In this document: positions 30,647 through 62,904 of the stretch, piece by piece
Layout: the number at the start of each line of letters is the position of its first letter
Numbering within the stretch: position 1 is the first letter of the stretch
DNA from: an uncultured Prevotellaceae bacterium
GTDB lineage: Bacteria > Bacteroidota > Bacteroidia > Bacteroidales > Bacteroidaceae
Direction: 5' to 3'
Assembly (NCBI GenBank): GCA_902779455.1
Contig: CACZBS010000005.1
Span: 124,001 to 188,000 of the forward strand
Length of the DNA stretch: 64,000 nt
The notes under the pieces: model-generated
The model's database searches: none
Told to the model about the DNA's origin: nothing
Seen by the model: only the letters and a program-made list of their open reading frames with translations
Made by a program: the position numbers and the translations under genes

Positions 30647-31435
30647 ATGGACTACACATTGAACATCCGGGGCCGACTGCTGGACCTCAGCGAGCCCCTC
30701 GTCATGGGCATCCTCAACGCCACGCCCGACTCCTTCTTCGCCTCCAGCCGACAGCTGACGGAGGCCGACATCGCGCGCCGCGCCAACCAAATCATCGCGG
30801 AGGGCGGACGCATCATCGACGTGGGAGCCTGCTCCACCCGGCCGGGCTCCGAACCCGTCAGCGAGGCGGACGAGGCGGAGCGCCTCAGGCGCGCCCTCAC
30901 CGTCGTGCGGCGCGAGCAGCCCGACGCCGTCGTCTCCGTCGACACGTTCCGCCCCGACGTGGCCCGCATGGCCGTCGAGGAGCTGGGGGCCGACATCGTC
31001 AACGACGTCAGCGAGGGCTCGGAAGCCATGTTCCGGATGGTCAGCCGCCTGCGCGTGCCTTACGTCATGATGTCCGTGCAGCCCGACCTGCGCCAGACGC
31101 TCCTCGTCTTCGCCCGCAAGGTGCAGCAGCTGCGCTCCATGGGCCAGAAGGACATCATCCTCGACCCCGGCTTCGGCTTCGGCAAGACGCTCGAGGAGAA
31201 CTATCGCCTCATGGCCGCACTGGAGCGCCTCGAGGTCATGGGCCTCCCCCTGCTCGTCGGCGTCTCGCGTAAGTCGATGATATACAAGCTATTGAATTCG
31301 ACGCCCGATGACTGTCTCAATGGTACAACGGTGCTCAACACCATCGCCCTGATGAAAGGCGCCTCAATTCTCCGCGTCCACGATGTCGCTCCTGCCTGCG
31401 AGGCAGTCAGGATATGGAGGAAGGTTGAAGGTTGA
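30647..31435 (+). CDS. folP: Dihydropteroate synthase
   Basis: 262 aa from the ATG at 30647; upstream in-frame codons cross the promoter box and are not used. The family signature GILNATPDSFF is at residues 21-31, then DVGACSTRPGS near 64 and a DPGFGFGK motif near 175. It condenses p-aminobenzoate with the pterin pyrophosphate in folate synthesis. The last residues (KVEG) and the stop are read from the first copies of the ggttgaagg repeat. cdaA lies downstream, a frequent Bacteroidetes pairing, but here an S23-gene element separates them. Confidence 0.94.
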   Translation: MDYTLNIRGRLLDLSEPLVMGILNATPDSFFASSRQLTEADIARRANQIIAEGGRIIDVGACSTRPGSEPVSEADEAERLRRALTVVRREQPDAVVSVDTFRPDVARMAVEELGADIVNDVSEGSEAMFRMVSRLRVPYVMMSVQPDLRQTLLVFARKVQQLRSMGQKDIILDPGFGFGKTLEENYRLMAALERLEVMGLPLLVGVSRKSMIYKLLNSTPDDCLNGTTVLNTIALMKGASILRVHDVAPACEAVRIWRKVEG

Positions 31436-31997
31436 AGGAGGATGTGTGCGCTTCGCGCAGGTTGAAGGTGGAGGGTTGAAGGTGGAGGGTTGAAGGTGGA
31501 GGGTTGAAGGAGGCGGAAACATTAATCATCTAAAATATATAAATATTACAATGAGTGATTTTGGCGATGTAATGCAGGACAAGTGCTTGAATTTTGCGAT
31601 TCGAGTGGTCAATCTGTGTCAGTTTCTCAACGACGAAAAGAAAGAGTTCAAAATCGCTGACCAGCTCTATCGCAGTGGAACCAGCATTGGCGCGAACTAT
31701 GCCGAGGCCCAGTGCGCCATCAGCCATAACGACTTCATCGCCAAGGTGTATATCTCGCTAAAGGAGTGCAACGAATCCCTCTACTGGCTCCAACTGCTAC
31801 ATAAAACCGGGAAACTGACCAAGCAGCAGTTTGAATCAATCTATGCCGACGCTGAAGAACTGAAGCGAATGCTCATCTCAATCACGAAGTCAGCACGCCA
31901 AAAGGCTTCTTCCGTCAGCCCCTAATCCTTCAACCCTCAACCTTCAACCTCGGCGAAGCCGATACATCAACCTTCAACCCTCATCCCTCAACCCTTA
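31418..31997. mobile_element. S23-gene element A (ggttgaagg theme)
   Basis: The left arm (31418-31513) is built of ggttgaagg/ggagggttgaagg words with a small gcgcttcgcgc hairpin. The right arm (31928-31997) has the complements with the matching cggcgaagccg hairpin. A four-helix-bundle gene lies between. The left arm begins within folP. A gene-less relative is at 9602-9744. I interpret it as an inserted element; transposition is not shown. Confidence 0.75.
31551..31925 (+). CDS. S23/IVP-type four-helix-bundle protein (copy A)
   Basis: 124 aa, all-helical, with the family signature RSGTSIGANYAEA (about residues 42-54), DFIAKVYISLKE and NESLYWL. The family was first found encoded by intervening sequences in 23S rRNA genes and is related in fold to the Avd protein of diversity-generating retroelements, which binds nucleic acid. 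Here it is not in an rRNA gene but within inverted word repeats between folP and cdaA. Three divergent paralogues with the same arrangement are at 38407, 55183 and 62489. Confidence 0.88.
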   Translation: MSDFGDVMQDKCLNFAIRVVNLCQFLNDEKKEFKIADQLYRSGTSIGANYAEAQCAISHNDFIAKVYISLKECNESLYWLQLLHKTGKLTKQQFESIYADAEELKRMLISITKSARQKASSVSP

Positions 31998-32001
31998 AAC
32001 T

Positions 32002-32778
32002 ATGATTAGTTTTGGCATAAAAGACTTCATCGATATCCTGCTGGTGGCCATGATGCTCTACTACATTTACCGGCTGATGCGCGAGACCCGCTCGCTCAAC
32101 ATCTTCGTGGGCATCATGATCTTCATCGTCGTATGGATCTTCATGTCGCAGGTGCTCGAGATGCGCCTCATGGGCACCATCCTCGACAAGCTCGTCTCCG
32201 TCGGCGCCATCGCCCTCATCATCCTCTTCCAGGAGGACATCCGCCGGTTCCTATATAATATAGGTACGCGACAGGGCGTCAGCCGCATGATCCACTTCTT
32301 CGTGCCGCAGCGCCTGGGCAACGTCAGCCGCGAGCAGCTCAAGCGCGACATCATGCCCGTCGTCATGGCCTGCATGTCGATGTCGAAGCAGAAGGTCGGC
32401 GCCCTCATCGTCTGGGAGCGGTCGCAGAGCCTGCAGGACATCGTGGCCACGGGCGACGTCGTCGACGCGGCCATCAACCAGCGGCTCATCGAGAACATCT
32501 TCTTCAAGAACTCGCCCCTGCACGACGGCGCCATGATCATCCACGACCACCGCATCCGCGCCGCCGGCTGCATCCTCCCCGTCAGCCACGACCTAAGCAT
32601 CCCCAAGGAGCTGGGCCTGCGCCATCGCGCCGCCCTCGGCATGAGCCAGGAGAGCGACGCCCTCTGCATCATCGTCTCCGAGGAGACGGGCGCCATCAGC
32701 GTCGCCCGCGGCGGCGACTTCCGCCTGCGCCTCTCAGCCGAGGAGCTCGAGTCGGTGCTGACTGAGGAGCTGAGCTGA
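32002..32778 (+). CDS. cdaA: Membrane diadenylate cyclase (CdaA/DacA type)
   Basis: 258 aa. Three N-terminal transmembrane helices (first 80 residues or so) are followed by the DAC domain with the DGA motif at residues 175-177 and RHR at 207-209, both needed to make c-di-AMP from two ATP. c-di-AMP controls osmotic and cell-wall homeostasis in other bacteria. The folP neighbour is typical. The start follows directly after the right arm of element A, so its 5' leader now comes from the repeat. Confidence 0.94.
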   Translation: MISFGIKDFIDILLVAMMLYYIYRLMRETRSLNIFVGIMIFIVVWIFMSQVLEMRLMGTILDKLVSVGAIALIILFQEDIRRFLYNIGTRQGVSRMIHFFVPQRLGNVSREQLKRDIMPVVMACMSMSKQKVGALIVWERSQSLQDIVATGDVVDAAINQRLIENIFFKNSPLHDGAMIIHDHRIRAAGCILPVSHDLSIPKELGLRHRAALGMSQESDALCIIVSEETGAISVARGGDFRLRLSAEELESVLTEELS

Positions 32779-32822
32779 GAGCACGCCACTTTAAATAAGC
32801 ATTCACATGACAGGAATGACGG

Positions 32823-32944
32823 CGCAGCTGCTCCCCTCCCTTCAAGGGGAGGGGCCGGGGGTGGGGTCTCTATATTCTTTACGCGGAGTTAGTTAGAGAC
32901 CCCACCCCCAACCCCTCCCCTTGAAGGGAGGGGAGCGGCTGGCG
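32823..32944. repeat. GC-rich inverted element (accccaccccc theme), copy 2, inverted arrangement
   Basis: The same unit as 14816 and 40204, but the order is reversed: the gctcccctccc end is outside and ggggtggggtctct faces the centre. Arms of about 47 bp flank a 25-nt centre without a gene. Confidence 0.83.
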
Positions 32945-32995
32945 CACTGTTCGCTGGCGGCACAAGACTGTATAAAGCTGGACCCAATAACAGAA

Positions 32996-33032
32996 ATGTT
33001 CACCAGTTGGTGTAACACCAGTCGGTGAACAT
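32996..33032. repeat. 37-bp palindrome (ttcacc...ggtgaa), copy 1
   Basis: atgttcaccagttggtgt pairs with acaccagtcggtgaacat. The second copy lies 90 bp downstream. In this 351-bp gap between cdaA and the HNH gene no gene is seen. Confidence 0.75.
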
Positions 33033-33085
33033 CCTTGTTCGTCTTCTACGGCGCTGTATGTCAGCCTCTTAAGCGAATTATGAAA

Positions 33086-33122
33086 ATGTTCACCGGTTGG
33101 TGTCACACCAGTCGGTGAACAT
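33086..33122 (+). terminator. 37-bp palindrome, copy 2, followed by T tract
   Basis: Nearly identical to 32996-33032, and on the + strand followed by atcatttttt, so it can end transcripts from cdaA. It lies 8 bp from the stop of the convergent HNH gene. Confidence 0.65.
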
Positions 33123-33129
33123 CATTTTT

Positions 33130-34302
33130 TTATCTGTTTCCTTTCGCCCTGTTGTGAGTCTTGCAGAGCATCTGGCAGTTGTCGATGGTCGTCGGGCCGC
33201 CATGGCTCCAGGCCGCCACGTGGTCGGCATCCATGTCCTTGAGGTCCCAGATGCGGGTGTGGTTGGCATCGTGGCCGACGGCGCAGAGCGGACAGTTGCT
33301 CTCGCCATGGGCTTTTGCCGCGGCCGTCTGGCGGGCATAGACAGCCTTCTTCGTGGGCTCGTCGAAGACGCGGACATTCAGCAACTTCGTGTTCTGACAG
33401 CCGTCGAGGATGTACTCATAGATGCCCCGTTTGTCCTTGACGTAGAAACTCTCGTAGAGCTCGCGCACCTTCTCTGCCACTTCAGTCGGGTTGTAGGGCT
33501 TCTGATGGAACCGCTCGTAGAGCTCGCCCCACCGGAGTCCGCACATCTCGCGCTCGGGCGTGAAGTCAAAGACGGCCGTGATCCAGTCGATGACAGAGGT
33601 GAAGTAGGCCTTCAGCTCATTGATGTCAGTGTCGAAGCGGTGGGCAGCCATATAGTCCTCAGTGTGGCCGCGGCTCACCCAGTCGAGCGCTGCCGCGAGG
33701 AAGTCCTGACGCTTGGCCGTGCCAGGTATGAAGCAGCTCCACTTGTTGATGTTCGTATTGTTGGAATTGGAGAACTCCTCCTTGGCCCGGCTGACAAACG
33801 GCCCGCTGTAGACGGCGTTGAGCGTCTCCTGTTGGTTGAGCGGGATGCCCACGATGTTGATCGTGCGAAACCAGTCCTTGATTTCCTTCTCCGTGCCTTC
33901 ACAGACGTAGATGAGCAGCCGGGTGTTCAGAAACGCCTCCTGCTCGTCAGGGTTCAGGGCCGAGAAGTACCAGGGGCGGCCGTCAGCGTCAATCCATGCG
34001 AACTTCTCAGTGATGAAGCGGCCCAGGGATGTGATGCGCTGCTGGCCGTCGAGCACCTCGTAGCGGTCGTCGCCCACCTTCGAGAAGTAGAGCAGTCCCA
34101 AGGGATAGCCGTTGCGCACGGACCTGATCACGTCCAATTCCTTCTTCCCGCCGTTCTCCGCATAGAGGTAGTGGCGCTGAAACTCCGGCTGGATGGTCAG
34201 CCGTCCCGAAAGGCCGTAAAGTCCTTTCCCTTCGTATTCGTTATACTGGAATCCCTTGCAGATGTCGCCAATGGTCCATGTGGTTACTAATGTTGGTGTC
34301 AT
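33130..34302 (-). CDS. DUF262 (GmrS/ParB-like) protein with C-terminal HNH nuclease
   Basis: 390 aa. The N-terminal DUF262 domain has the DGQQR motif (residues 85-89), a nucleotide-dependent motif seen in GmrSD-type and related defence nucleases. The C-terminus holds an HNH finger: CPLC at 337-340, DADHVAAW with His361, Asn375 and a second Cys380/His383 pair. It starts within the last four bases of the methylase gene, so the two are translationally coupled. The likely role is DNA cleavage controlled by methylation, a restriction-like system, by inference. Confidence 0.86.
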   Translation of the reverse strand: MTPTLVTTWTIGDICKGFQYNEYEGKGLYGLSGRLTIQPEFQRHYLYAENGGKKELDVIRSVRNGYPLGLLYFSKVGDDRYEVLDGQQRITSLGRFITEKFAWIDADGRPWYFSALNPDEQEAFLNTRLLIYVCEGTEKEIKDWFRTINIVGIPLNQQETLNAVYSGPFVSRAKEEFSNSNNTNINKWSCFIPGTAKRQDFLAAALDWVSRGHTEDYMAAHRFDTDINELKAYFTSVIDWITAVFDFTPEREMCGLRWGELYERFHQKPYNPTEVAEKVRELYESFYVKDKRGIYEYILDGCQNTKLLNVRVFDEPTKKAVYARQTAAAKAHGESNCPLCAVGHDANHTRIWDLKDMDADHVAAWSHGGPTTIDNCQMLCKTHNRAKGNR

Positions 34303-35435
34303 AGCGGTTGTTGTTTTTTGCGGATAAGAATTCGTTTATATCCTTTTATAAGTTCTCCATCATGAAAAGCTACCCATGTGGCATTTAAGTCATTGGCTGT
34401 TGAGTACTCTTCATTTGTGTATTTTTTTGTCCTCGATGCAGACCAACGTTCGGTTGTATCTATTATATCAAATTGCTCTGGGCAAAACCTGTCCAAAAAA
34501 GTAATAGGAACGCCCATTGTGCCATTATAGTCTGATGGAATGCTATCAACATAAGGGACTTCGATGGCGTCGAAATTATCGTAGTGAAGATATCCTAATT
34601 TTTGTATCTCTTTATGCTTACTAAATCTGAGATTATCGGCCATTGTCATTAACTGTAATGGACGATGTCGTCTACCATGTTCAAGATTAGTATACCAACA
34701 GGAATTACCAAGTCTTGTAAAATCCCCAATATACCCTAATTTAGCTGCTTTAGCCTTGTCTTTAGGATCTACGAGGGTGCCTTTAGGTACACCAAATACC
34801 ATATCAGTAGCAAAGCCTGTTGCCCCTAGCCACAATGAATTAGATTTTATCAAGGCAAATAACTCTTTATAAGTAATAGCGTTTGAATTACCAATTATGA
34901 GCATCTTTTTATTCTTTTCGCATATCCAAGCGATAAACTCCCTGAACAACGAGAAGGGTGGGTTAGTCACGATGATATCCGCTTCGTCGCGCAGTTGGCA
35001 AACCTCACGGCTGCGGAAGTCGCCATCGCCTTCGAGATAGTGCCACTCGAGGTCGTCGATGTCGATCCGTCCGTTGCCGTTGGTGTCGCGTGTCAGTTCG
35101 AATATCTTGCCCTTGATGCGCGTCTTGTCCATGTCATACCAAGGGCTCGCGGTCTCGAAGAGGGTGGGCTGGTAGTTCTTGTACTTCTTGCTCTCTACGG
35201 CATAGCTCGTAGAGATGAGCCTGCGCAGACCGAGCCGCTCGAAGTTCTGCGCGAAAAAACGCGTGAAATTGCTCCACTCGGGGTCGTCGCAGGGCAGCAG
35301 CACCGTCTTGTCGCGAAACGTGTCGGGGTTGTACTCCAGATAAGCGTTCACCTCCTTCTGGATGTCGGCATACTGCGTATAGAACTCATCGTTCTTTGCC
35401 GCTTTCGCAGCGCCGAGGTTCGTGTTATTGGCCAT
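34299..35435 (-). CDS. EcoRI-family adenine-specific DNA methyltransferase
   Basis: 378 aa. The catalytic NPPF motif is at residues 158-161 in IIVTNPPFSLFREFI. The N-terminus (KNDEFYTQYADIQKEV, and LPCDDPEWSNF at 47-57) is characteristic of the M.EcoRI family. An EF-hand-like loop DTNGNGRIDIDDLE occupies residues 117-130. The first half of the gene has host-like GC content, while the part after the NPPF codons (about 34310-34920) is strongly AT-rich, pointing to replacement of the C-terminal, presumably target-recognition, half. It is coupled to the DUF262-HNH gene. Confidence 0.88.
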   Translation of the reverse strand: MANNTNLGAAKAAKNDEFYTQYADIQKEVNAYLEYNPDTFRDKTVLLPCDDPEWSNFTRFFAQNFERLGLRRLISTSYAVESKKYKNYQPTLFETASPWYDMDKTRIKGKIFELTRDTNGNGRIDIDDLEWHYLEGDGDFRSREVCQLRDEADIIVTNPPFSLFREFIAWICEKNKKMLIIGNSNAITYKELFALIKSNSLWLGATGFATDMVFGVPKGTLVDPKDKAKAAKLGYIGDFTRLGNSCWYTNLEHGRRHRPLQLMTMADNLRFSKHKEIQKLGYLHYDNFDAIEVPYVDSIPSDYNGTMGVPITFLDRFCPEQFDIIDTTERWSASRTKKYTNEEYSTANDLNATWVAFHDGELIKGYKRILIRKKQQPL

Positions 35436-35521
35436 ACGTTATGCACTTTGTGCGAATGCTTATCTTCGGAGGTGTAGGCTATAGCAAGAGCATAAAGAAA
35501 GCATGAACGATATTCTCATCC

Positions 35522-35643
35522 ACACTTCTCGGCTCTAGCACATGCCTAACAATCCAGATAAGTCACGCCCATGCTTAACGCATAGGCGCTTGCAACTTAT
35601 TCTTCGGATTGAATTCTTTTGAATGTGCTAGATTCAGAAGTGT
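35522..35643. ncRNA. Long nested hairpin upstream of the methylase (candidate structured RNA)
   Basis: Successive arms pair in order over 122 nt: acacttct/agaagtgt, ctagcacat/atgtgctag, aatcc/ggatt, ataagt/acttat and gcccatgc/gcataggc around a 5-nt loop. On the minus strand it would lie in the methylase leader, about 87 nt before the start. It might be a regulatory leader, a free-standing RNA or a palindromic element. I do not recognise a known family. Confidence 0.5.
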
Positions 35644-35760
35644 CCCGAATAACAGCAAACGCTTGTTATATTTCCACAAAGATTGCACCGCCTCCCTTCG
35701 CTCAGGGCTTCAAGCCTTTTGTGGCAAGCGTCGTCTACGACGATTGGCAGTACTTGGCCG

Positions 35761-35768
35761 CAAAATTA
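35761..35768 (-). promoter_or_regulatory. Possible -7 box for the methylase operon
   Basis: TAATTTTG on the minus strand, 326 nt before the methylase ATG. A matching -33 box is not clear. Confidence 0.4.
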
Positions 35769-35873
35769 CAAATAAATTTTGAATTTCGCTTCCAGAAGAA
35801 GAAAAAAATGAGAAAATGTAGGAACATTGGTTTCCCGTCATTCACGACATTTGTGCTTTGGGGAAAATAAATC

Positions 35874-36077: not shown

Positions 36078-36122
36078 ATAAAATAAATCCTATCTGTAAA
36101 TCACTTTTTTCGAGACGTTTGA

Positions 36123-36152
36123 TTTGCATTCGGGAAATTATTACTACCTTTG
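36123..36152 (+). promoter_or_regulatory. Promoter of the small lipoprotein gene at 36272
   Basis: TTTG at 36123-36126 and TACCTTTG at 36145-36152 with an 18-nt spacer. The palindromic leader element starts 11 nt downstream. Confidence 0.65.
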
Positions 36153-36163
36153 CAGCGCACAAG

Positions 36164-36265
36164 TAGGAGGCGACGTGTCTCACGTCGCATCAAACTGCTG
36201 GATTGCGACGTGAGACACGTCGCCTCCTACTGCAAAGCGGAGAAAAAACCATTAGTTATATAGAA
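36164..36265 (+). repeat. Palindromic leader element, second copy (aggaggcgacgtg theme)
   Basis: The 26-bp arms 36164-36189 and 36204-36229 are followed by ctgcaaagcgg and accattagttatatagaa, the same blocks and order as in the murF leader. The next codons are the lipoprotein start. Confidence 0.85.
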
Positions 36266-36271
36266 ACGGCT

Positions 36272-37354: not shown

Positions 37355-38365
37355 ATGGGTTTAATTGAACAAATCATTGCGCGTGCGAAGTCGAACAAGC
37401 AGCGCATCGTGCTCCCCGAAGCTGAGGAGGAGCGCACACTGACGGCAGCCGACCGCGTGCTGGCCGACGACGTGGCCGACCTGATCCTGATCGGCAATCC
37501 TGAGAAGGTACATGCATTGGCAAAAGAGAAGGGCCTGACCCACATCGACAAGGCCACACTCATCGACCCCGAGAACTACGAGCGGAGCGAGGAGATGGCC
37601 CAGCTGCTGCAGAAGCTGCGCGAGAAGAAGGGCATGACCATCGAGAAGGCTCGCGAGCTGGTGAAGGACCCGCTCTACCTGGGTTGCATGATCATCAAGA
37701 CGGAGGGTGCCGACGGTCAGATCTCTGGTGCCCTGTCGACGACGGGCGAGACGCTGCGTCCCGCCCTGCAGATCATCAAGTGTGCCCCCGGCATCACGTG
37801 CGTCAGCGGCGCCATGCTGATGATCACCAACAAGCCGGAGTACGGTGAGAACGGCGTGCTCGTCGTGGGCGACGTGGCCGTGACGCCCATGCCCGATGCC
37901 AACCAGCTGTCGCAGATTGCCGTGTGCACGGCTCAGACGGCCCGTTCGGTGGCCGGCTTTGAGGATCCGCGCGTAGCCATGCTGAGCTTCTCGACGAAGG
38001 GATCGGCCACGCACGAGGTGGTCGACAAGGTCATTGAGGCCACCCGTCTGGCCCATGAGCTCGACCCCGAGCTGAAGATCGACGGCGAGCTGCAGGCCGA
38101 CGCCGCCCTCGTGCCCGCCGTGGGCAAGAAGAAGGCCCCGGGCAGCGCCATCGCCGGCCAGGCCAACGTGCTCGTATTCCCCAACCTCGAGGTGGGCAAC
38201 ATCGCCTATAAGCTCGTCCAGCGTCTGGGCGACGCCATCGCCGTAGGTCCCATCCTGCAGGGCATCGCCCGTCCCGTCAACGACCTCTCGCGCGGCTGCT
38301 CCGTCGACGACATCTACTACCTCGTCGCCATCACCGCCTGCCAGGCCATGGACGCTAAAAAGTAA
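37355..38365 (+). CDS. pta: Phosphate acetyltransferase
   Basis: 336 aa from the ATG at 37355 (MGLIEQIIARAKSNKQ), the normal length for the short, single-domain Pta. It converts acetyl-CoA and phosphate to acetyl phosphate. Motifs include GSATHEVV and the C-terminal PGSAIAGQANVLVFPNLEVG. The upstream in-frame extension contains the promoter and is excluded. It is paired with ackA, but an S23-gene element is inserted between the two. Confidence 0.95.
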   Translation: MGLIEQIIARAKSNKQRIVLPEAEEERTLTAADRVLADDVADLILIGNPEKVHALAKEKGLTHIDKATLIDPENYERSEEMAQLLQKLREKKGMTIEKARELVKDPLYLGCMIIKTEGADGQISGALSTTGETLRPALQIIKCAPGITCVSGAMLMITNKPEYGENGVLVVGDVAVTPMPDANQLSQIAVCTAQTARSVAGFEDPRVAMLSFSTKGSATHEVVDKVIEATRLAHELDPELKIDGELQADAALVPAVGKKKAPGSAIAGQANVLVFPNLEVGNIAYKLVQRLGDAIAVGPILQGIARPVNDLSRGCSVDDIYYLVAITACQAMDAKK

Positions 38366-38856
38366 GTGAAGAGTGAAAAGTGAAGAGTGAAGAATTTGCT
38401 ACCGCGATGACACATTATAACAGAGAAGGCGGTCCGCTTCATATTAAGAGTTACGCGTTTGCTGTGCGAATAGTTAAGATGTTTCTGCATCTTTCCGGAA
38501 ACGATTGGAAGTTGCAGACCATCTATAAGCAAGTGCTGCGCTCGGGGACGTCTATCTCTGCAAATGTGCATGAGTCGGAATTTGCGCAAAGTCCTTCTGA
38601 TTTCGCTTCGAAGCTTCATATAGCTCTTAAGGAGGCCAACGAAACGATGAATTGGCTCAATTTGCTGCGCGATACGGGCTTTATTGATGAAAAAGCCTTT
38701 GAGAGTATGACAAATGATTGTAGCGAACTCATTGCCTTGTTGGTCTCATCAATTAAAACAATAAAACATAATAACCAATTAAATCATTAGAGTGGAGAGT
38801 GAGGATTGATGGATGGCGGTAGCAAATTCTTCACTCTTCACTCTTCACTCTTCACT
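38365..38856. mobile_element. S23-gene element B (gtgaagagtgaa theme) between pta and ackA
   Basis: The left arm 38365-38405 and right arm 38816-38856 are 41-bp inverted copies with a single mismatch. They consist of agtgaag words ending in the core aatttgctaccgc. A four-helix-bundle gene lies between. The left arm starts at the last base of the pta stop codon. Related gene-less arms are at 8778 and 58342. Confidence 0.85.
38407..38790 (+). CDS. S23/IVP-type four-helix-bundle protein (copy B)
   Basis: 127 aa from the ATG two bases inside the left arm; a GTG at 38380 within the arm is less likely. Signature RSGTSISANVHESE (about residues 45-58), then DFASKLHIALKEANETMNWL. It is AT-rich compared with pta and ackA. 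Same family as copies A, C and D, but with a diverged N-terminus. The likely role is nucleic-acid binding, by analogy to Avd. Confidence 0.88.
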   Translation: MTHYNREGGPLHIKSYAFAVRIVKMFLHLSGNDWKLQTIYKQVLRSGTSISANVHESEFAQSPSDFASKLHIALKEANETMNWLNLLRDTGFIDEKAFESMTNDCSELIALLVSSIKTIKHNNQLNH

Positions 38857-38864
38857 TAATTAAG

Positions 38865-40106: not shown

Positions 40107-40203
40107 ATGCCCCTCAAAGCGGCACTTCTCTCATGACGAAGGACCGCTTCGCTGAACGAGAATCCCCCCCTTGATAGTCGTGGAATTAAATTTGGATTTT
40201 ATA

Positions 40204-40364
40204 GTTACAGACCCCACCCCCAACCCCTCCCCTTGAAGGGAGGGGAGTAGCTGCGCCGTCATTCCCCATCGGACAGTGCGCCAGCCAACTCCTCCCCTTC
40301 GGGGAGGTCGGGAGGGGTTACTCCCCTCCCTTCAAGGGGAGGGGTTGGGGGTGGGGTCTGTAAC
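40204..40364. repeat. GC-rich inverted element (accccaccccc theme), copy 3
   Basis: Outer arms gttacagaccccaccccc and complement, each followed by aacccctccccttgaaggg units. The centre carries gccagccaactcc and similar words also found in copy 1. There is no gene. With the ackA terminator it fills most of this 354-bp gap; no promoter motif is seen for the following gene. Confidence 0.86.
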
Positions 40365-40409
40365 TATAATATCCAAGTTGTTTTTGCAAAACCAAACAGA
40401 AGTTGAGAT

Positions 40410-48314: not shown

Positions 48315-48695
48315 TGATACAAGAAGACTACGAAATACGGTTTTCTCTTTCAAACCACGAATTGAACGAATTAAACGAATTTCATGACTCGGCAGAATTC
48401 GTCTGATTCGTGGTTCGAGACAGAGGAAGACATCGCGGATAGAATTCGATTAATTCGTGATCGAAAAAGAAACAATGGAAAAGTTTAATCACTAATCATA
48501 TGATACAAGAAGGCTACGAAATACGGTTTTCTCTTTCAAACCACGAATTGAACGAATTAAACGATTTTCATGACTCGGCAGAATTCGTTTAATTCGTGGC
48601 CGATACATAGGAAGGCATCGCGGAAAGAATTCGCTTAATTCGTTTTATTCGTGGTAGAAAAAGAAACAGTGGAAAAGTTTAATCACTAATAATAT
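48315..48695. repeat. 186-bp tandem duplication with gaattcgtttaattcgtgg theme
   Basis: Copy 1 (48315-48500) and copy 2 (48501-about 48690) match over their full length apart from small changes and an 8-bp indel. Each copy contains inverted words ccacgaattgaacgaatt and aattcgt-attcgtgg and ends ggaaaagtttaatcactaat just before the next unit. The second copy leads into the phosphatase ATG. No gene lies inside. Confidence 0.9.
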
Positions 48696-50107: not shown

Positions 50108-50401
50108 TCAGAAGACCCGTATTCCATACTTGACGATCTGTTGCTTAAATACGGGAGGAAGAGTGTCGTGCATCCGAACGACGTCGACATTGCAGCCCAG
50201 CAAGTCCTCAAGGTAGACTTTCACACCGGCTTGCTTGAACAGGTTCGGAGTCATTTCTACGCAGACGTCCACATCGCTGCCCTCCTTTTGGTCGCCCCTT
50301 GCGAGGGAACCAAAAAGCATCAGCGAACGCACACCGTACTTCTCACTAAGATATGCCTTCGTCGTCTTCAGCTTGTCGATACATTCTTCTCTGTCTGTCA
50401 T
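50108..50401 (-). CDS. mntA: MNT-type nucleotidyltransferase antitoxin (MntA)
   Basis: 97 aa. The minimal nucleotidyltransferase motif GS-(x10)-D-x-D is at Gly31-Ser32 and Asp43/Asp45 (LFGSLARGDQKEGSDVDV). In HepT/MntA modules this protein adds AMP units to the HEPN RNase and neutralises it. It precedes the hepT-like frame with a 10-nt gap. Confidence 0.88.
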   Translation of the reverse strand: MTDREECIDKLKTTKAYLSEKYGVRSLMLFGSLARGDQKEGSDVDVCVEMTPNLFKQAGVKVYLEDLLGCNVDVVRMHDTLPPVFKQQIVKYGIRVF

Positions 50402-55128: not shown

Positions 55129-55608
55129 AACTGAGAACTGAGAATTGAGAACTGAGAGGTATGATTAGACCTTGCGACATGTCTATGTCGTGTACCTCCT
55201 TTTAAGAGTCTTGATGGAGCTGACAAGAATCTTGACCAACTCATCAGCGTCTTGGTAGATGGACTGAAATTCTTTTTCATTTAAATATCCTCCTTCATGT
55301 AAGTTTTTAATCCAGAACAAAGTCTCGTCAGCTTCTTTTAAGGCAATACTTAATTTGTGGATGAAGTCGGCTGTGCTTTGGGCATTCCGGCTCTCGGTTA
55401 CGTTTGCTCCGATGCTTGTCCCGCTTCGTAATATTTGTTTTGAGATGACGAACTCTTGCTTTTGAGACGTGAGGTATTTGTACATCTTGACTATTCTGCC
55501 TGCGAAGGCCTCGGCCTTGTCCAGTAGAATGCTGCGTTCTCTTTTCATCTTTGATTCAGTGCTAATGTCTAATCATACCTCTCAGTTCTCAACTCTCAGT
55601 TCTCAACT
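55129..55608. mobile_element. S23-gene element C (ctgagaactgaga theme)
   Basis: The 42-bp arms 55129-55170 and 55567-55608 are inverted copies with about three mismatches. They are made of aactgag/gaattgag words and end in the inner core tatgattagac. A minus-strand four-helix-bundle gene lies between. The right arm overlaps the stop codon of the MIP18-family gene. Confidence 0.85.
55183..55548 (-). CDS. S23/IVP-type four-helix-bundle protein (copy C)
   Basis: 121 aa, all-helical. Signature RSGTSIGANVTESR (about residues 42-55), then DFIHKLSIALKEADETLFWI. It is closest to copy D in length and motifs, and its element shares the inner core tctaatcata with D. AT-rich compared with lpxH. Possible nucleic-acid binding, by analogy. 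Confidence 0.9.
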   Translation of the reverse strand: MKRERSILLDKAEAFAGRIVKMYKYLTSQKQEFVISKQILRSGTSIGANVTESRNAQSTADFIHKLSIALKEADETLFWIKNLHEGGYLNEKEFQSIYQDADELVKILVSSIKTLKRRYTT

Positions 55609-55991: not shown

Positions 55992-56681
55992 CTACAATTT
56001 GCCCTGTTCGTGGTAGGAGTAGTAGCGGCCGTCGGCGACGATGACGTGGTCCATGAGCCGCAGCCGCATGACGTCGCAGGCCTGATGGATGGTGTGTGTC
56101 AGCGCGTCGTCCTGGCGGCTGGGGGTGATGTTGCCGCTGGGGTGGTTGTGGCAGACGATGAGTAGCGTGGCGTTCGACAGGACGGCCTCGCGGATGATGA
56201 TGCGCACGTCGACCGTCACCTCCGAGATGCCGCCGTGGGCTATCCTGACCTGCTTGATGAGGCGCTGGTCCTGGTTGAGGTAGAGCACCCAGAACTCCTC
56301 TACGTCGAGGTCCTGCATCTGCGGGTGCATGTGGTTGTAGACGCGTGTGGCCGTCGACAGCTGGGGGCGCTCCTCGGGCGTCTCCATCTGGCGGCGCTTG
56401 CCCAGCTCGCAGGCTGCGAGGATGGTGATGGCCTTGGCCTCGCCGATGCCGTTGTATTGGCATAGGTCGTGGATGGACAGCTTGCCCAGCGTGTTGAGGC
56501 TCCCCCGGCAGTCGTTGAGCACGCGCTTCATCAGGTCGACGGCGCTCTCCTTCGTCGAGCCTGAGCCGATGAGGATGGCCAGCAGCTCGGCGCTGCTGAG
56601 TGCCTGAGCCCCCAGCCGCTCCAGCTTCTCGCGTGGGCGGTCCTCCTCGGCCCAGTTGGCTATGGTCAGCTTGTCGCTCAT
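55992..56681 (-). CDS. radC: RadC-family JAMM/MPN protein
   Basis: 229 aa. An N-terminal helix-hairpin-helix region (around QYNGIGEAKA, residues 75-84) is followed by a JAMM metalloprotease-like domain with H178-N-H180-PSG and Asp191. The name refers to an early repair phenotype; the function is unsettled. Start overlaps the ORF6N stop by four bases. Confidence 0.93.
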   Translation of the reverse strand: MSDKLTIANWAEEDRPREKLERLGAQALSSAELLAILIGSGSTKESAVDLMKRVLNDCRGSLNTLGKLSIHDLCQYNGIGEAKAITILAACELGKRRQMETPEERPQLSTATRVYNHMHPQMQDLDVEEFWVLYLNQDQRLIKQVRIAHGGISEVTVDVRIIIREAVLSNATLLIVCHNHPSGNITPSRQDDALTHTIHQACDVMRLRLMDHVIVADGRYYSYHEQGKL

Positions 56682-57256
56682 TTCTTGTTGTTGGGTTGTA
56701 GGAATCCGATAGGTCTTCGCTCGCTTGACTTTCGCTCGACTTGTAGTTCGGCCAGAGCCTGATTGATCAGCTCCAGCTGCATCCGGTTCTCTTCGTTGAT
56801 GTCGTTCTGGTCAGACAATATTTCTTCTATATAGTCCTTGATTCCCTGCATCTCGCGCTTCAGTTCCTTGATGTCGTCAGTGTTGGTGGGCAGTGCGGCT
56901 GCGATGCGCCTGAATTCGACGAAAGCCCTCATGATGCCTCGGTTGATCTCGATGGCAGTCCTGGAGCGGAGCACGGAACTGAGCATGGCCACACCCAGTT
57001 CGGTGAAAGCATAAGGCAGCTTACGCGTGCCACCCCAACTTGATGTCACAAATTGTGATGTCAAGTTTTCTTCGGCTTCATCTCTTGTCAGTTGGAACAT
57101 GAAATCTTCACCTTCGAAGCGTTCCTTGTTCCTCTTGACTGCTTGGTTCAGGGCCCTTGTTTCCACGCCATATAAGATAGCGAGGTCGAAGTCGAGCATC
57201 ACGCGCTGGCCACGAATGAAGTGGATTTTCTGGTAGATTGGTTCAAGCTCGTTCAT
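56678..57256 (-). CDS. ORF6N-domain protein
   Basis: 192 aa. The ORF6N domain (IRGQRVMLDFDLAILYGV, about residues 14-31, through AMLSSVLRSRTAIEINRGIMRAF) is a DNA-binding domain frequent in phage and bacterial genomes. A C-terminal coiled-coil-like stretch follows (about 120-170). Lower GC than radC, to which it is translationally coupled. A recent or phage-related origin is possible. Confidence 0.88.
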   Translation of the reverse strand: MNELEPIYQKIHFIRGQRVMLDFDLAILYGVETRALNQAVKRNKERFEGEDFMFQLTRDEAEENLTSQFVTSSWGGTRKLPYAFTELGVAMLSSVLRSRTAIEINRGIMRAFVEFRRIAAALPTNTDDIKELKREMQGIKDYIEEILSDQNDINEENRMQLELINQALAELQVERKSSERRPIGFLQPNNKK

Positions 57257-57261
57257 GAATG

Positions 57262-58314: not shown

Positions 58315-58341
58315 GCGGTCAATAGGCTCTGGTTGTTAATA

Positions 58342-58418
58342 GAAAAAAGTGAAGAATCGGCCCCCGCCGCTGATGGCATGGCGGTAGCAAATTCTTCACT
58401 TGTCACTTTTACTTTTTT
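58342..58418. repeat. Gene-less mini-element, gtgaagaat theme
   Basis: The left arm 58342-58357 and right arm 58391-58418 are inverted, and the inner side of the right arm reads gcggtagcaaattcttcact as in element B. It lies between efp and the glycosyltransferase gene. Confidence 0.78.
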
Positions 58419-58428
58419 CCCTCTGCTT

Positions 58429-58995
58429 TTACTCCTTGGCGCGGGCCAGGTAGCTTCCGTCGCGGGTGTCGACCTGGATGAGGTCGCCCTCGTTGATGAA
58501 CAGGGGCACGCGAACCTCGACGCCAGTCTCCAGCGTGGCGGGCTTCAGCGTGTTCGTGGCGGTGTCGCCCTTGATGCCGGGCTCCGAGTGGGTGACGCGC
58601 AGGATGGTCTTCACGGGCATCTCGGCGTAGAGGATGGTGCCGTCGGTCGTGTCGGTGACCACGTCGACGATGTCGCTCTCCTTCATGTACTCATGGCCGA
58701 TGACGAGGTCGTTGGCGATGGGAATCTGCTCGAAGGTCTCCTGGTTCATGAAGATGCGGCCTTCCTGGTCCTCATAGAGGTACTGGTAGGGACGGCGCTC
58801 GATGATGACGTCCTCGAGCTTCTCGCCGATGTTGTAGCGGCGCTCCAGCACGCGGCCGTCGCTGACGTTCTTCAACTTGATGTTCATGATGGTGTTGCCC
58901 TTGCCCGGCTTGCGGTGCTGGAAGTCGATGCACACCCAAATGGCGCCGTCCATGCGAATGGCGGTGCCTTTCTTGATGTCTTGTGAGTTAATCAT
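58429..58995 (-). CDS. efp: Elongation factor P
   Basis: 188 aa, three beta-barrel domains. The tip loop reads HRKPGKGNT, with Lys32 at the position that is post-translationally modified in many bacteria. The C-terminal segment has the family IQVDTRDGSYLARAKE end. It relieves ribosome stalling at polyproline. A minus-strand TACCTTTG at 59051-59044 is its -7 box. Confidence 0.96.
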   Translation of the reverse strand: MINSQDIKKGTAIRMDGAIWVCIDFQHRKPGKGNTIMNIKLKNVSDGRVLERRYNIGEKLEDVIIERRPYQYLYEDQEGRIFMNQETFEQIPIANDLVIGHEYMKESDIVDVVTDTTDGTILYAEMPVKTILRVTHSEPGIKGDTATNTLKPATLETGVEVRVPLFINEGDLIQVDTRDGSYLARAKE

Positions 58996-59043
58996 AAATG
59001 AATTTTATATATAATAATATTGAAAAAGGCGCTTTTGCGCTGC

Positions 59044-59051
59044 AAAGGTAC
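59044..59051 (-). promoter_or_regulatory. efp -7 promoter box
   Basis: TACCTTTG on the minus strand, about 50 nt before the start codon; no clear -33 match. Confidence 0.55.
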
Positions 59052-59124
59052 GCATTTTTCCGAAAAAAACATAAAATATTTAGCTAAATTTCTCAGTTTT
59101 CTTGCTTATTTAAAAAGATTTGTG

Positions 59125-59132
59125 TAATTTTG
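59125..59132 (+). promoter_or_regulatory. rpmH -7 promoter box
   Basis: TAATTTTG, 44 nt before the rpmH ATG, with a TTG about 20 nt upstream. Confidence 0.6.
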
Positions 59133-59176
59133 CAGCCCGAAACGCTTGAATAAACTCAAATAAAAGTGATATAACG

Positions 59177-59332
59177 ATGAAAAGAACATTTCAGCCCCAC
59201 AATCGCCGCCGCGTGAACAAGCATGGTTTCCGCGAGCGCATGGCCACCAAGAATGGCCGTCGCGTCCTGGCTGCTCGCCGCGCCAAGGGTCGCAAGAAGT
59301 TGACCGTTTCCGACGAGAACCACGGAAAGTAA
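59177..59332 (+). CDS. rpmH: 50S ribosomal protein L34
   Basis: 51 aa, too short for common ORF cut-offs. The sequence starts [18 protein letters not shown], followed by [20 protein letters not shown], the unmistakable L34 pattern. Not beside dnaA/rnpA here; it is divergent from efp. A strong terminator follows. Confidence 0.98.
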
Positions 59333-59353
59333 TTTCCTCCGCGTCACGACGAA

Positions 59354-59402
59354 GGACTGGCGGACGGATGCCGAAAGGCGCCTGTCCGCCAGTCCTTTTT
59401 TT
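59354..59402 (+). terminator. Rho-independent terminator after rpmH
   Basis: An 18-bp-class stem beginning ggactggcggac and ending gtccgccagtcc, followed by seven T. Strong and directional. Confidence 0.88.
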
Positions 59403-59443
59403 GTCGGCGTGCGTGCAGGATTATTTCGGCGTCGCAAAACGCT

Positions 59444-59505
59444 ATTTCAGCGCCGCTGAAATATCATTCAGCGCCGCTGCGATATATTTCAGCGCCGCTG
59501 AAATA
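59444..59505. repeat. Train of palindromes (atttcagcgccgctgaaat)
   Basis: Three copies of the 19-bp palindrome type, the middle one degenerate, in the rpmH-PASTA gap. The design parallels the train at 30454. Confidence 0.75.
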
Positions 59506-59577
59506 GTTTTATGCTCAAAAAGCGGCCCCTTTGAACATTTATTTGCGCAAACCTGCCGCGGCTTCATTTTTTTTTTG

Positions 59578-59585
59578 TAATTTTG
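59578..59585 (+). promoter_or_regulatory. -7 box for the PASTA-rluD transcript
   Basis: TAATTTTG, 25 nt before the start at 59610; preceded by a T-rich stretch without a clear -33 box. Confidence 0.55.
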
Positions 59586-59609
59586 CCGAACATACAGAAG
59601 CAGAACGCA

Positions 59610-60275
59610 ATGAACGTGAAAGAATTCAAACGGAAAATAACGTCGTCGCTCATCTGGGGCAACCTGCTGGCCATGGCGCTCGTCGTCGTCGCATTGTTCC
59701 TCGGGCTGCGCTGGTGGCTGGCCGTCTATACGCACCACGGCGAAAGCGTCGAGGTGCCCGACGTCTACGGCATGGACCTCTCTACGGCCCAGGAGCGGCT
59801 GAAGGCCGAGGGCCTGTCGCTGCTCGTCACTGACTCCGCCTACAGCAAGAAGCTGCCGGCGGGCAGCGTGATGCTGCAGCAGCCGGTGAAGGGCGCGCGG
59901 GTGAAGGAGGGCCGCGTGGTCTACGTGACGATCAACTCGACGACCCTCTCGAAGCTGGCCATACCTGACCTGATCGACAACAGCTCCTTCCGCGAGGCAC
60001 GCGCCAAGCTGCAGGCCATGGGCTTCCGCGTGGGCGAGCCGCGCCTCATCGAGGGCGAGAAAGACTGGGTCTACGGCATTCAGCACGAGGGCCACAACCT
60101 GATAGCGGGCGACATGGTGGCCCGCGAGGCCCTGCTGACGCTCGTCATCGGCAGCGGCTACTCAACAGAGAAGGAGGACCTGATGACCGACAGCCTCGTG
60201 CTGAGCGGATTCATGAGCTCGGGCGTGGAGGCCGACGAGGTGGACGACTTCCTGGAAGTAACGGATGAGGAATGA
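59610..60275 (+). CDS. Membrane-anchored PASTA-domain protein
   Basis: 221 aa from the ATG at 59610. A short N-terminus, one transmembrane helix (about residues 12-33) and then PASTA repeats beginning VEVPDVYGMDLSTAQERL (about 46-63), with a second IPDLIDNSSFREAR, and a third weaker copy. PASTA domains bind peptidoglycan or beta-lactam-like ligands. It overlaps the RluD-type gene start by four bases. Confidence 0.88.
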   Translation: MNVKEFKRKITSSLIWGNLLAMALVVVALFLGLRWWLAVYTHHGESVEVPDVYGMDLSTAQERLKAEGLSLLVTDSAYSKKLPAGSVMLQQPVKGARVKEGRVVYVTINSTTLSKLAIPDLIDNSSFREARAKLQAMGFRVGEPRLIEGEKDWVYGIQHEGHNLIAGDMVAREALLTLVIGSGYSTEKEDLMTDSLVLSGFMSSGVEADEVDDFLEVTDEE

Positions 60276-61372
60276 TGAACATGACTGACGACGAACTGTT
60301 CGACGACGAGCTGGAACTGCTCGACGACGGCGCTGACCCGCAGGCGGGCGACGACGACGCGCAGACGCTCTATGAGCACCTGCGACTGGAGGTCGACCGC
60401 GGACAGGTGCCACTGCGCATTGACAAGTACCTGGCCGAGCACACACAGCACTCCTCGCGCAACCGCATCCAGCAGGCGGCCGACGCCGGATTCCTCTTTG
60501 TCAACGACCGCCCCGTCAAGAGCAACTATAAGGTGCGGGCTGGCGACGTCATCACGCTGATGCTCGATAGGCCGCACTACGACTCGACCATCGTGCCCGA
60601 GGAGATGCCCCTCGACGTGCGCTATGAGGACGACCAGCTCATGGTGGTCTACAAGCCCGCAGGCCTCGTCGTCCATCCCGGCTGTGGCAATTTCCACGGC
60701 ACGCTCGTCCATGCCGTCGCATGGCACCTGCGCAATCTGCCTACTTATGACCCCAACGACCCGCAGGTGGGACTTGTCCATCGCATTGACAAGGACACCA
60801 GCGGACTGCTCGTCGTTGCCAAGACGCCCGAGGCGAAGTCGTCGCTCGGCAAGCAGTTCTTCAATCACGACACACATCGCTCCTACGTGGCCCTCGTCTG
60901 GGGCAACATCACCGACGACGAGGGTCGCATCGAGGGCAACATCGGCCGCGACCAGCGCGACCGCCTGCGCATGGCGGTTTATCCGCCAGGCTCCGACATC
61001 GGCAAGCCCGCCGTCACCCACTATCGCGTGCTGGAGCGCTATGGCTACACCACGCTCGTGGAATGTCGGCTCGAGACGGGCCGCACCCATCAGATCCGCG
61101 CCCACATGACCCACATCGGCCATCCCCTCTTCGCCGACGAGCGCTACGGGGGCTGCGAGATACGCCGCGGCGAGCGCACCGCCTCCTATAAGGCCTACAT
61201 CCAGAACTGTTTTAAGCTATGTCCGCGCCAGGCGCTCCACGCCCAGACGCTGGGCTTCCGCCATCCCTCGACAGGCCAGCAGATGGACTTCACCAGCCCC
61301 CTGCCCGACGACATGCAGGCCCTCATCGACAAGTGGCGCAAGCTGACCCGCAATAACGATTCAGGGGAATGA
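60272..61372 (+). CDS. RluD-family 23S rRNA pseudouridine synthase
   Basis: 366 aa. An acidic N-terminal extension (first 30 residues or so, MTDDELFDDELELLDDG) precedes the S4 domain (about 45-100) and the catalytic domain with HRIDKDTSG, nucleophile Asp173. Sites modified in rRNA are not predictable from the sequence alone. The start may be the first, second or third Met. Confidence 0.92.
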   Translation: MMNMTDDELFDDELELLDDGADPQAGDDDAQTLYEHLRLEVDRGQVPLRIDKYLAEHTQHSSRNRIQQAADAGFLFVNDRPVKSNYKVRAGDVITLMLDRPHYDSTIVPEEMPLDVRYEDDQLMVVYKPAGLVVHPGCGNFHGTLVHAVAWHLRNLPTYDPNDPQVGLVHRIDKDTSGLLVVAKTPEAKSSLGKQFFNHDTHRSYVALVWGNITDDEGRIEGNIGRDQRDRLRMAVYPPGSDIGKPAVTHYRVLERYGYTTLVECRLETGRTHQIRAHMTHIGHPLFADERYGGCEIRRGERTASYKAYIQNCFKLCPRQALHAQTLGFRHPSTGQQMDFTSPLPDDMQALIDKWRKLTRNNDSGE

Positions 61373-61412
61373 CGAAAATGCCGAAATAACGTTATCACGA
61401 AATAACGAAAAA
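61373..61412. repeat. AT-rich word-repeat spacer before ddl
   Basis: cgaaataacg-type words, including ataacgttat, the same palindrome as before mraY. Same theme as 761-836. Confidence 0.62.
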
Positions 61413-61439
61413 ATAGAATAATAAAAATAAAGAACAAAA

Positions 61440-62441
61440 ATGAAACCCGCAAAACGCACCATTGCCATCGTCTGCGGTGGCGACTCCTCCGAGCACGACG
61501 TCTCGCTCCGTTCCGCTCAGGGCCTCTACGGCTTCTTCGACAAAGACCGCTACAACGTATACATCGTCGACGTCAAAGGCACCAGCTGGCAGGTCGAACT
61601 GCCCGACGGCACCCTGACGCCCATCGACAAGAACGACTTCTCGTTCCGCATGAACGGACGGCGCCGATTCTTCGACTATGCCTACATCACCATCCACGGC
61701 ACACCCGGCGAGAACGGCATCCTGCAGGGATACTTCGACCTGCTGCACCTGCCTTACTCGACCAGCGGCGTGCTCGTCGAGGCCATGACCTTCGACAAGT
61801 TCGTGCTCAACCAATACCTCCGCGGATTCGGCGTCCGCGTGGCTGAGAGCATCCTCGTGCGCCGCGGCCAGGAGCAGCAGCTCGACGAGCAGAAGGTACT
61901 CGAGACCATCGGCATGCCCTGCTTCGTCAAACCCGCCAACGACGGCTCGTCGTTCGGCGTGTCGAAGGTGAAGAACATCGACAAGCTGGCCCCCGCCCTG
62001 CGCATCGCCATGATGGAGAGCGACGAGGTGATGATCGAGTCGTTCCTCGACGGCACGGAGATCACCGTCGGCTGCTATAAGACGAAGGACAAGTCGGTCG
62101 TCTTCCCCGTCACCGAGGTGGTCACGAAGAACGAGTTCTTCGACTACGACGCCAAGTACAACGGACAGGTCGACGAGATCACGCCCGCCCGCATCCCCGC
62201 CGAGCTGGCCAAGCGCGCCCAGGACCTCACGTCGGCCATCTACGACATCCTCCACTGCAACGGCATCATCCGCATCGACTACATCATCACCCGTGGCGAC
62301 GACGGCCACGACAAGCTCAACATGCTCGAAGTGAACACCACGCCCGGCATGACCCCCACCAGCTTCATACCCCAGCAGGTGCGCGCCGCCGGCCTGTCGA
62401 TGACCGACGTGCTGACTGACATCGTGGAGAACCAGTTTTAG
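61440..62441 (+). CDS. ddl: D-alanine:D-alanine ligase
   Basis: 333 aa ATP-grasp ligase that makes D-Ala-D-Ala for MurF. The N-terminal CGGDSSEHDVSLRSA (about residues 12-26) and a C-terminal EVNTTPGMTPTSF are diagnostic. Preceded by the same AT-rich spacer theme as murE and mraY, and its stop codon runs into the left arm of element D. Confidence 0.96.
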   Translation: MKPAKRTIAIVCGGDSSEHDVSLRSAQGLYGFFDKDRYNVYIVDVKGTSWQVELPDGTLTPIDKNDFSFRMNGRRRFFDYAYITIHGTPGENGILQGYFDLLHLPYSTSGVLVEAMTFDKFVLNQYLRGFGVRVAESILVRRGQEQQLDEQKVLETIGMPCFVKPANDGSSFGVSKVKNIDKLAPALRIAMMESDEVMIESFLDGTEITVGCYKTKDKSVVFPVTEVVTKNEFFDYDAKYNGQVDEITPARIPAELAKRAQDLTSAIYDILHCNGIIRIDYIITRGDDGHDKLNMLEVNTTPGMTPTSFIPQQVRAAGLSMTDVLTDIVENQF

Positions 62442-62904
62442 TGAATAGTTTACAGTGAATAGTGAATAGTTATGATTACCTTCTGCCTATGAAGCGGCCT
62501 GATAGTCCATTGCAGAGAAAGTCTGAAGCCTATTCTGGAAGAATAGTACGTCTGTATCGCTATTTGCTGAATACTAAGAAAGAAACGGTCATGGCCAAGC
62601 AGATTTATCGGAGTGGAACCAGCATTGGGGCTAATATTGCTGAAAGTCGGTACGCGCAAAGTGGGCCAGACTTTATCAGTAAGTTGAGTATTGCCCTGAA
62701 AGAGGCAGGTGAGACGGAGTATTGGTTGGGATGCATTTATTCATCTGGACTGATAGATGAAAAGGGGTATGAGTCAATGCTCTCGGACAATACTGAAATC
62801 ATGAAGATGCTTACGGCTTCGATTAATACAATGAAGAAAAAATTAGGGATATAATAGATTCGGGACCAAGTCTAATCATAACTATTCACTATTCACTGTT
62901 CACT
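62440..62904. mobile_element. S23-gene element D (gtgaatagtgaatagt theme)
   Basis: The left arm (62440-62478) and right arm (62873-62904) are inverted copies of gtgaatagt words with the inner core tatgatta / taatcata. Element C has the same core. The left arm begins in the ddl stop codon. A four-helix-bundle gene lies inside. Confidence 0.85.
62489..62854 (+). CDS. S23/IVP-type four-helix-bundle protein (copy D)
   Basis: 121 aa from the ATG at 62489; a GTG at 62462 within the arm is less likely. Signature RSGTSIGANIAESRYAQS (about residues 40-57), then DFISKLSIALKEAGETEYWL. Closest to copy C. It shares the AT-rich composition of the other copies. Confidence 0.9.
   Translation: MKRPDSPLQRKSEAYSGRIVRLYRYLLNTKKETVMAKQIYRSGTSIGANIAESRYAQSGPDFISKLSIALKEAGETEYWLGCIYSSGLIDEKGYESMLSDNTEIMKMLTASINTMKKKLGI

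Follow-up and report, generated by a model that had tools for sequence, protein, structure and literature searches.

Four genes for S23-type four-helix-bundle proteins in a 64,000-nucleotide stretch of an uncultured Prevotellaceae bacterium (contig CACZBS010000005.1 of assembly GCA_902779455.1, positions 124,001 to 188,000; hereafter the window) each lie between inverted arms made of short repeated words, which raises the question of whether gene and arms form one mobile unit and what the protein would contribute to it. We consider it probable that they belong to a repeat system similar to REPINs (repetitive extragenic palindromic doublets forming hairpins) and MITEs (miniature inverted-repeat transposable elements), in which the partner gene would be the S23 four-helix bundle and not a RAYT (REP-associated tyrosine transposase). 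On this reading, an S23 gene and the inverted tandem arrays of 7(-8)-mers on either side of it make up one cassette that settles beside stop codons in intergenic gaps; elsewhere in the genome, the ends are found without the gene, singly, in tandem, or as hairpins in which a loop of 13-114 nt separates an arm from its inverted partner.

A preliminary description of this DNA had reported four S23-type genes with a shared RSGTSI[GS]AN signature, and both the coordinates and the signature (4/4) were confirmed (Table 1). All four open reading frames (ORFs) matched the PF05635 profile (E 8.2e-22 to 2.3e-26) as well as TIGR02436, exceeding the curated cut-offs, and the closest solved structure for the protein of element 1 was 2rld, which has five chains (E 3.6e-32). 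Each cassette occupies the gap between two co-directional genes, with the left arm starting at the stop codon of the upstream gene or close to it. Protein genes flank all four cassettes, none of which lies within a 23S rRNA gene, the sole Rfam match in the window being a tRNA. When the arms were measured as the best ungapped inverted match between the upstream flank and the reverse-complemented downstream flank, they were 27-57 nt long instead of the 31-95 bp first reported; the upper figure is defensible, because on the 5' side of element 1 the full array of words covers about 95 nt (31418-31512). The words TTGAAGG, GTGAAGA, TGAGAAC, and GTGAATA were found as reported, one per element, but they are not always unique to one element: the word of element 2, together with the inner ATTTGCTnCCGC motif, also occurs in another S23 element and in many arms elsewhere in the genome. 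Mini-hairpins of the GCGCTTCGCGC or GGCGAAGCC type lie inside some arms (window positions 31447-31460 and the arms of loci L008 and L285).

Arm scores were obtained for S23 loci of the window's own genome (G000, a 3.70 Mb metagenome-assembled genome, MAG, 93% complete, with 12 PF05635 matches) and of its genus, family, and phylum. A score of at least 20 was reached by 9/12 own-genome, 15/28 genus, 17/29 family, and 3/29 phylum loci, and a score of at least 15 by 9, 23, 23, and 14, respectively (69/98 in total, with L026 left out; family-search loci are the best-scoring matches of many and no random sample). These frequencies are far above those obtained with flanks swapped between genomes (at least 20 in 0.5% and at least 15 in 1.5% of 9,362 pairs) or within the same genome (1.4% and 3.6% of 138 pairs), and above those of ordinary ORFs in about 0.39 Mb of G000 (0/263 and 3/263, with flank windows of 330 nt from the ORF ends for these and 400 nt from the profile core for S23). 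The survey that had been proposed for the association thus supports it; S23 genes without clear flanking arms, which the preliminary description had named as evidence against a mobile unit, exist but are a minority (29/98 loci score below 15). In a set of 80 loci from named genomes, mostly Bacteroidota, 40 of the 78 analysed (L184 and L190 left out) reached 15 and 14 reached 20, compared with 2.35% and 0.45% of 6,004 swaps. Among records labelled as outside Bacteroidota, mostly MAGs, 6 of 12 analysed reached 15. An S23 match was present in 27 plasmid records, mostly cyanobacterial, and of the six cyanobacterial plasmid loci read, four scored at least 17, a fifth 15, and one 10, with words such as AGGGAAC, GGGAAAA, and TTAGCTG. 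The autocorrelation of S23 arms peaked at lags 7 and 14 (62 and 35 arms), and the median arm length was 35 nt in 62 arms. The best period among 54 arms scoring at least 18 was 7 in 31 and 8 in 13, and the 5' arm contained 9% C.

Between genomes, the more alike two S23 proteins are, the more alike are their words (Mantel r 0.35, 0/2000 permutations; computed on the 97 of 179 loci with an arm score of at least 16). Words are shared by most S23 pairs of 60% identity or more (60% of 109, 83% of 24, and 2/2) and by about 1% of pairs below 40%, a correlation that can reflect plain descent of one unit. S23 genes 74-84% identical to that of element 2, plus a second clade (49-61%), have inverted arms of GTGAAGA, ATGAAGA, or GTGAAAA type. 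As judged by the downstream flank, the first clade occupies 6 different gaps and the second 7, with only pta-ackA in common (from protein reading, we take the flanking genes to be folP/dacA-like for element 1, pta/ackA for element 2, DUF59-like/lpxH for element 3, and ddl/acyltransferase-like for element 4). The best match of the left arm was its own right arm in 10/12 and 14/14 elements of the two clades (26/30 loci used; L339, L345, L352, and L353 left out), with arm identities of 0.97 and 0.93 within elements compared with 0.77 and 0.64 for left arms between elements. Among seven elements all located at pta-ackA, arm identity was 0.97 within and 0.74 between. Because arms agree better within than between elements, both arms of a locus appear to change together. 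On the evidence of these comparisons, the S23 gene and its two inverted arms are a cassette and not a property of the site, and recognition of the arms by the S23 protein would fit the co-variation of gene and arms. Selection on S23 is also strongly purifying (median omega 0.07 across the 11 of 55 pairs that could be used).

These results bear on the idea that the arms are unrelated slippage repeats, of the kind of the short tandemly repeated repetitive (STRR) sequences, which were equalised by template switching and in which the S23 gene merely lands. Heptamers in tandem are prone to slippage, the identity of the arms would follow from quasi-palindrome correction, and cyanobacterial STRRs resemble these arms. 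Nevertheless, this idea is highly improbable, since S23 genes at new sites bring their arms with them, in many cases including the inner motif, and the words are clade-specific and not site-specific in two clades; ordinary ORF flanks are without such arms, and gene-less pairs share inner motifs and, in some cases, loops.

Comparison with a sister genome (G041; alignments mostly 95-98% identical) agreed with the presence/absence variation that had been predicted for a mobile unit. The same S23 gene was present at five of the nine sites compared (folP-dacA, ddl, L003, L007, and L008, with a differing left flank at L008), and four sites differed. At pta-ackA, G041 carries a GxxExxY (TIGR04256, PF13366) cassette and an arm remnant instead of element 2; its lpxH site has a different S23 gene with a different word; an S23 cassette takes the place of an ORF6N-domain gene (PF10543, window positions 56678-57256); and at 18.68 kb of the window G041 holds an S23 cassette where outer-arm remnants are all that G000 retains. 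The ddl gap is empty in another relative, G028. The occupants of the pta-ackA gap also vary among the 29 readable genomes (from the 30 closest of 263 matching genus genomes; L272 left out): S23 in 4, GxxExxY in 11 (one broken), other inverted repeats in 7, deletion remnants in 2 (by eye), and a short spacer of 17-54 nt in 5. All 15 S23 and GxxExxY frames in this gap are in the sense orientation. Inverted repeats similar to a G/C-rich palindromic family (CCCCACCCCCGACCCCTCCCC...) also occur in the pta-ackA gap of several relatives; in the window this family lies at 14814-15018, 32825-32941, and 40192-40376 and is polymorphic between G000 and G041.

The ends of the cassettes also occur apart from the gene. 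The end motif of element 2 (AGTGAARAATTTGCTDCCGC) has 91 copies in G000 (47 forward, 44 reverse) compared with 0 for the reversed control. Two pairs of these ends enclose an S23 gene, 22 are close inverted gene-less pairs (33-134 nt from start to start), and 43 are single or tandem ends. A second end motif has 19 copies in G000 (control 0), nine with the ending of element 3 and the other ten with the ending of the S23 element at the lpxH site of G041. In the 21 gene-less pairs read in context (L355 left out), the loops are 13-114 nt long, 13 of them 18-25 nt. A comparison of 15 loops of 18-25 nt (14 from G000 and one from G041, with shorter and longer loops left out) revealed four clearly homologous loops from different sites (scores 14, 12, 10, and 8) and no clear relative for most of the 15; the observed first and third ranks were unreached in 300 shuffles. 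Such homology at different sites indicates that hairpins, or at least a number of them, were copied whole. One loop is inverted at the same site between G000 and G041 (L354 vs L379), three other comparable loops are not, and the gene-less hairpin L374 is present in G041 and not at that place in G000. MITE-like mobility, expressed as presence/absence, replacement, similar ends at many unrelated sites, and gene-less copies, is therefore well supported at the sequence level. The elements resemble MITEs as short gene-less inverted-repeat units at many sites that share their ends with a gene-bearing relative; they differ from them in that the gene-bearing relatives read carry S23 alone within the ends, with no transposase, and in that no target duplication was seen in the few site pairs.

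The copy number of the end motif is associated with the cognate gene. The element-2 motif was found in 54/150 genus genomes, namely in 20/28 with the cognate S23 and 34/122 without (Fisher 4e-5), and at least 10 copies were present in 15/28 and 10/122, respectively. REPINs, according to the part of PMC8049555 consulted, likewise have inverted ends, a short and highly diverse spacer, single-end remnants, and more copies when the cognate gene is present, and it is the partner that duplicates them. The likeness to REPIN/RAYT systems thus extends to numerous pairs of inverted ends with a short and variable spacer between them, to single ends, and to the association of copy number with a cognate gene. 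The systems differ in that the partner here is a PF05635 four-helix bundle, with no Y1 (HUH) tyrosine transposase match in G000, in that the ends are tandem 7-mers whose word changes from family to family, and in that the S23 partner sits inside the ends, in different gaps, with several families per genome. At E<=0.001, G000 (93% complete) gave 0 matches to Y1_Tnp (PF01797), other transposases not being searched for, and 0 matches to reverse transcriptase (PF00078). Either enzyme was considered as a hidden partner and rejected for want of a G000 match, though 22/60 (reverse transcriptase) and 34/60 (Y1) genus genomes have one.

An ordinary DDE transposase or another recombinase might instead move the units in trans, S23 being a passenger or a maintenance protein. 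Non-autonomous families elsewhere, REPINs among them, are served by a transposase in trans, and the transposase search made here covered Y1 alone. We nonetheless regard this explanation as decidedly unlikely, as genomes with the cognate S23 tend to have more copies and distant genomes show the coupling of S23 to arms with other words (phylum loci, non-Bacteroidota records, and cyanobacterial plasmids), so that a shared transposase would have to follow each change of word.

The anatomy of the elements also suggests a different mode, in which base pairing of the arms in the operon mRNA makes a stem that is cut by RNase III, S23 is an RNA-binding protein, and the element spreads via RNA or cDNA, as an intervening sequence (IVS) of rRNA might. 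In the portion of PMC4990558 consulted, the Coxiella IVS is described as 428 nt long, with an S23p ORF, a 28-bp terminal stem, and RNase III processing, and the S23 ORF enclosed by complementary ends is common to both kinds of element. The S23 genes lie in the sense orientation within operons, and the RNA folds predicted for elements 2 and 4 are strong (z -10.0 and -4.9), although perfect arms alone would give such values. In the window, however, the elements are intergenic, their ends consist of repeated words, and they have gene-less relatives with the same ends. Mismatches between arms showed no excess of G-U over A-C (65 vs 82, p 0.19; 97 elements), hence no sign of selection for RNA pairing, and this lowers the IVS-like reading. 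The lack of a PF00078 match in G000 also speaks against it, as it does against a likeness to diversity-generating retroelements, whose Avd protein is a structural relative of PF05635 (consulted part of PMC10053308). Loop inversion between the sister genomes points to the DNA level. Moreover, the 21 gene-less pairs had 11 convergent, 8 co-directional, and 2 divergent neighbour contexts, so that hairpins lie as often between convergent genes as in operons, these counts being rough because a simple longest-ORF caller was used and several neighbour distances exceed 500 nt. An RNA-level mode is accordingly unlikely. Of the earlier suggestion that the units are IVS-like or MITE-like, the MITE-like mobility and the IVS-like anatomy stand, and the RNA-level mode found no support.

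The preferred reading, a REPIN- or MITE-like system with S23 as partner, would account for the orientation of the gene in another way. S23 was sense to both neighbours in 144/168 loci and antisense to both in 5 (179 loci, of which 168 have two called neighbours), compared with 124 and 43 of 275 ORF triplets in G000. Because gene-less pairs are not tied to operons, this orientation is best explained by a need for read-through expression: the S23 gene would persist mainly where read-through transcription expresses it. At the DNA level, the S23 ring may bind the word repeats that belong to its family and assist host enzymes of replication or recombination in extruding, copying, or repairing hairpins, and template switching from arm to arm would keep the arms alike while letting the words drift.

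Several observations weigh against this model. Three of the 12 own-genome S23 genes (L010-L012) are without clear arms, and among 30 related S23 loci the inner motif TTTGCTnCCGC (one mismatch allowed) was found on both sides in 16, on one side in 4, and on neither in 10. All 7 matchable element-2-family pairs are at the same place in G000 and G041 (for six of them the G041 stretches were chosen because the motif was present), and only L374 clearly differs. The motif is abundant in some genomes that lack a close S23 (G034 with 51 copies and G240 with 24) and absent from 8/28 genomes with the clade; the 28 include G000 and were delimited by a 115-bit clade threshold chosen once the list had been seen, and the copy-number and other tests ignore phylogeny. 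A clean target duplication was sought in a few site pairs, which are remnants or replacements, and none was found. For the selection estimate, dS was saturated (44/55 pairs unusable for omega). Finally, we know of no catalytic motif in S23, so the model lacks a copying enzyme.

A second kind of gene was found in a similar setting. GxxExxY (PD-(D/E)XK) genes of the genus lie in inverted words, 19/27 reaching 15 and 15/27 reaching 20 (L150 short, L168 and L169 not analysed), whereas flank swaps reached 15 in 1.0% and 20 in 0/702. Their words, ACGAATTAA or TTAGAATAA, are about 9 nt long, a length that rests on word reading, since the autocorrelation supports a period of 9 weakly (+0.03; 4/16 arms). 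These cassettes (L043, L140-L167, L257-L283) are alternative occupants of pta-ackA besides S23.

The literature already describes small mobile repeats within heptamer arrays of cyanobacteria. The STRR heptamers and the TAACTGA repeats resemble the present arms as tandem heptamers in intergenic DNA, and 4/6 cyanobacterial plasmid S23 genes have such words as inverted arms (at least 17). The consulted part of PMC4679880 presents the TAACTGA repeats of Beggiatoaceae, Cyanobacteria, and Bacteroidetes as mainly direct repeats with a possible regulatory role, and the terms 's23' and 'helix bundle' have 0 occurrences each in its text. A wider proposal, which we find doubtful though conceivable, is that mobile repeats without a transposase form a class of their own across bacterial phyla, with S23 as its founder. 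The ring would read its own 7-mer, at about one word per subunit (suggested by the median arm of 35 nt in 62 arms and the five chains of 2rld), and would drive hairpin copying by host template switching; the words would be free to change provided that the protein and the two arms do so in step. GxxExxY cassettes, with words of about 9 nt, would be a second, parallel class, and the long-unexplained STRR heptamers would be their remains.

Table 1. Positions of the S23 elements and of related features in the window.
Feature	Position	Strand	Remarks
Element 1, 5' arm	31426..31482	+	Word TTGAAGG, with GCGCTTCGCGC mini-hairpin inside; holds the stop codon of the upstream gene
Element 1, S23 ORF, 124 aa	31551..31925	+	PF05635, TIGR02436
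Element 1, 3' arm	31927..31983	+	Words as reverse complement; arm pair 57 nt, score 30
Element 2, 5' arm	38363..38405	+	GTGAAGA-type words x4, inner ATTTGCTACCGC; begins at pta stop codon
Element 2, S23 ORF, 127 aa from ATG	38407..38790	+	PF05635, TIGR02436
Element 2, 3' arm	38816..38858	+	Stops a few nt short of ackA; arm pair 43 nt, score 40
Element 3, 5' arm relative to ORF	55567..55605	-	TGAGAAC words, inner GGTATGATTAGAC
Element 3, S23 ORF, 121 aa	55183..55548	-	PF05635, TIGR02436
Element 3, 3' arm relative to ORF	55132..55170	-	Abuts lpxH-like start codon; arm pair 39 nt, score 36
Element 4, 5' arm	62452..62478	+	GTGAATA words, inner TTATGATTA; soon after ddl stop codon
Element 4, S23 ORF, 121 aa from ATG	62489..62854	+	PF05635, TIGR02436
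Element 4, 3' arm	62873..62899	+	Arm pair 27 nt, score 27
Outer-arm remnant	18662..18716	+	G041 has a 466-nt S23 insert here
Gene-less mini-element	28749..28864	.	Inverted GGAGTTTA arms, 50-nt spacer; word of the C22 S23 element (L001); not there in G041
Gene-less inverted word element, GxxExxY type	48354..48655	.	ACGAATTAA words; present twice here and once in G041
Single arm motif, element-2 family	58381..58400	-	AGTGAAGAATTTGCTACCGC; C5:182381-182400

Two other features of the window were recorded. Hairpins around GTAGGAGGCGACGTGTCTCACGTCGCA lie at 30272-30337 and 36162-36231, and the G000 copies at C5:117207 and 154237 are without a G041 counterpart. An MntA-like nucleotidyltransferase (Polbeta/NTP_transf_2) at 50108-50401 falls just below the NCBIfam MntA cut-off and is possibly a HEPN/MNT antitoxin.

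We know of no established function for the S23 proteins of rRNA IVSs. Among the open-licence PMC matches listed, no title or abstract opening described S23 genes linked to inverted word repeats or to gene-less hairpins, and an earlier description elsewhere is possible. Ralph and McClelland (1993), as reported in the consulted portion of PMC4990558, suggested that the S23 ORF serves mobility. With the elements described here, this idea becomes directly testable. Heptamer repeats between bacterial genes might also have their origin in such cassettes, which may represent a REPIN-like population kept with a partner that is not a transposase.

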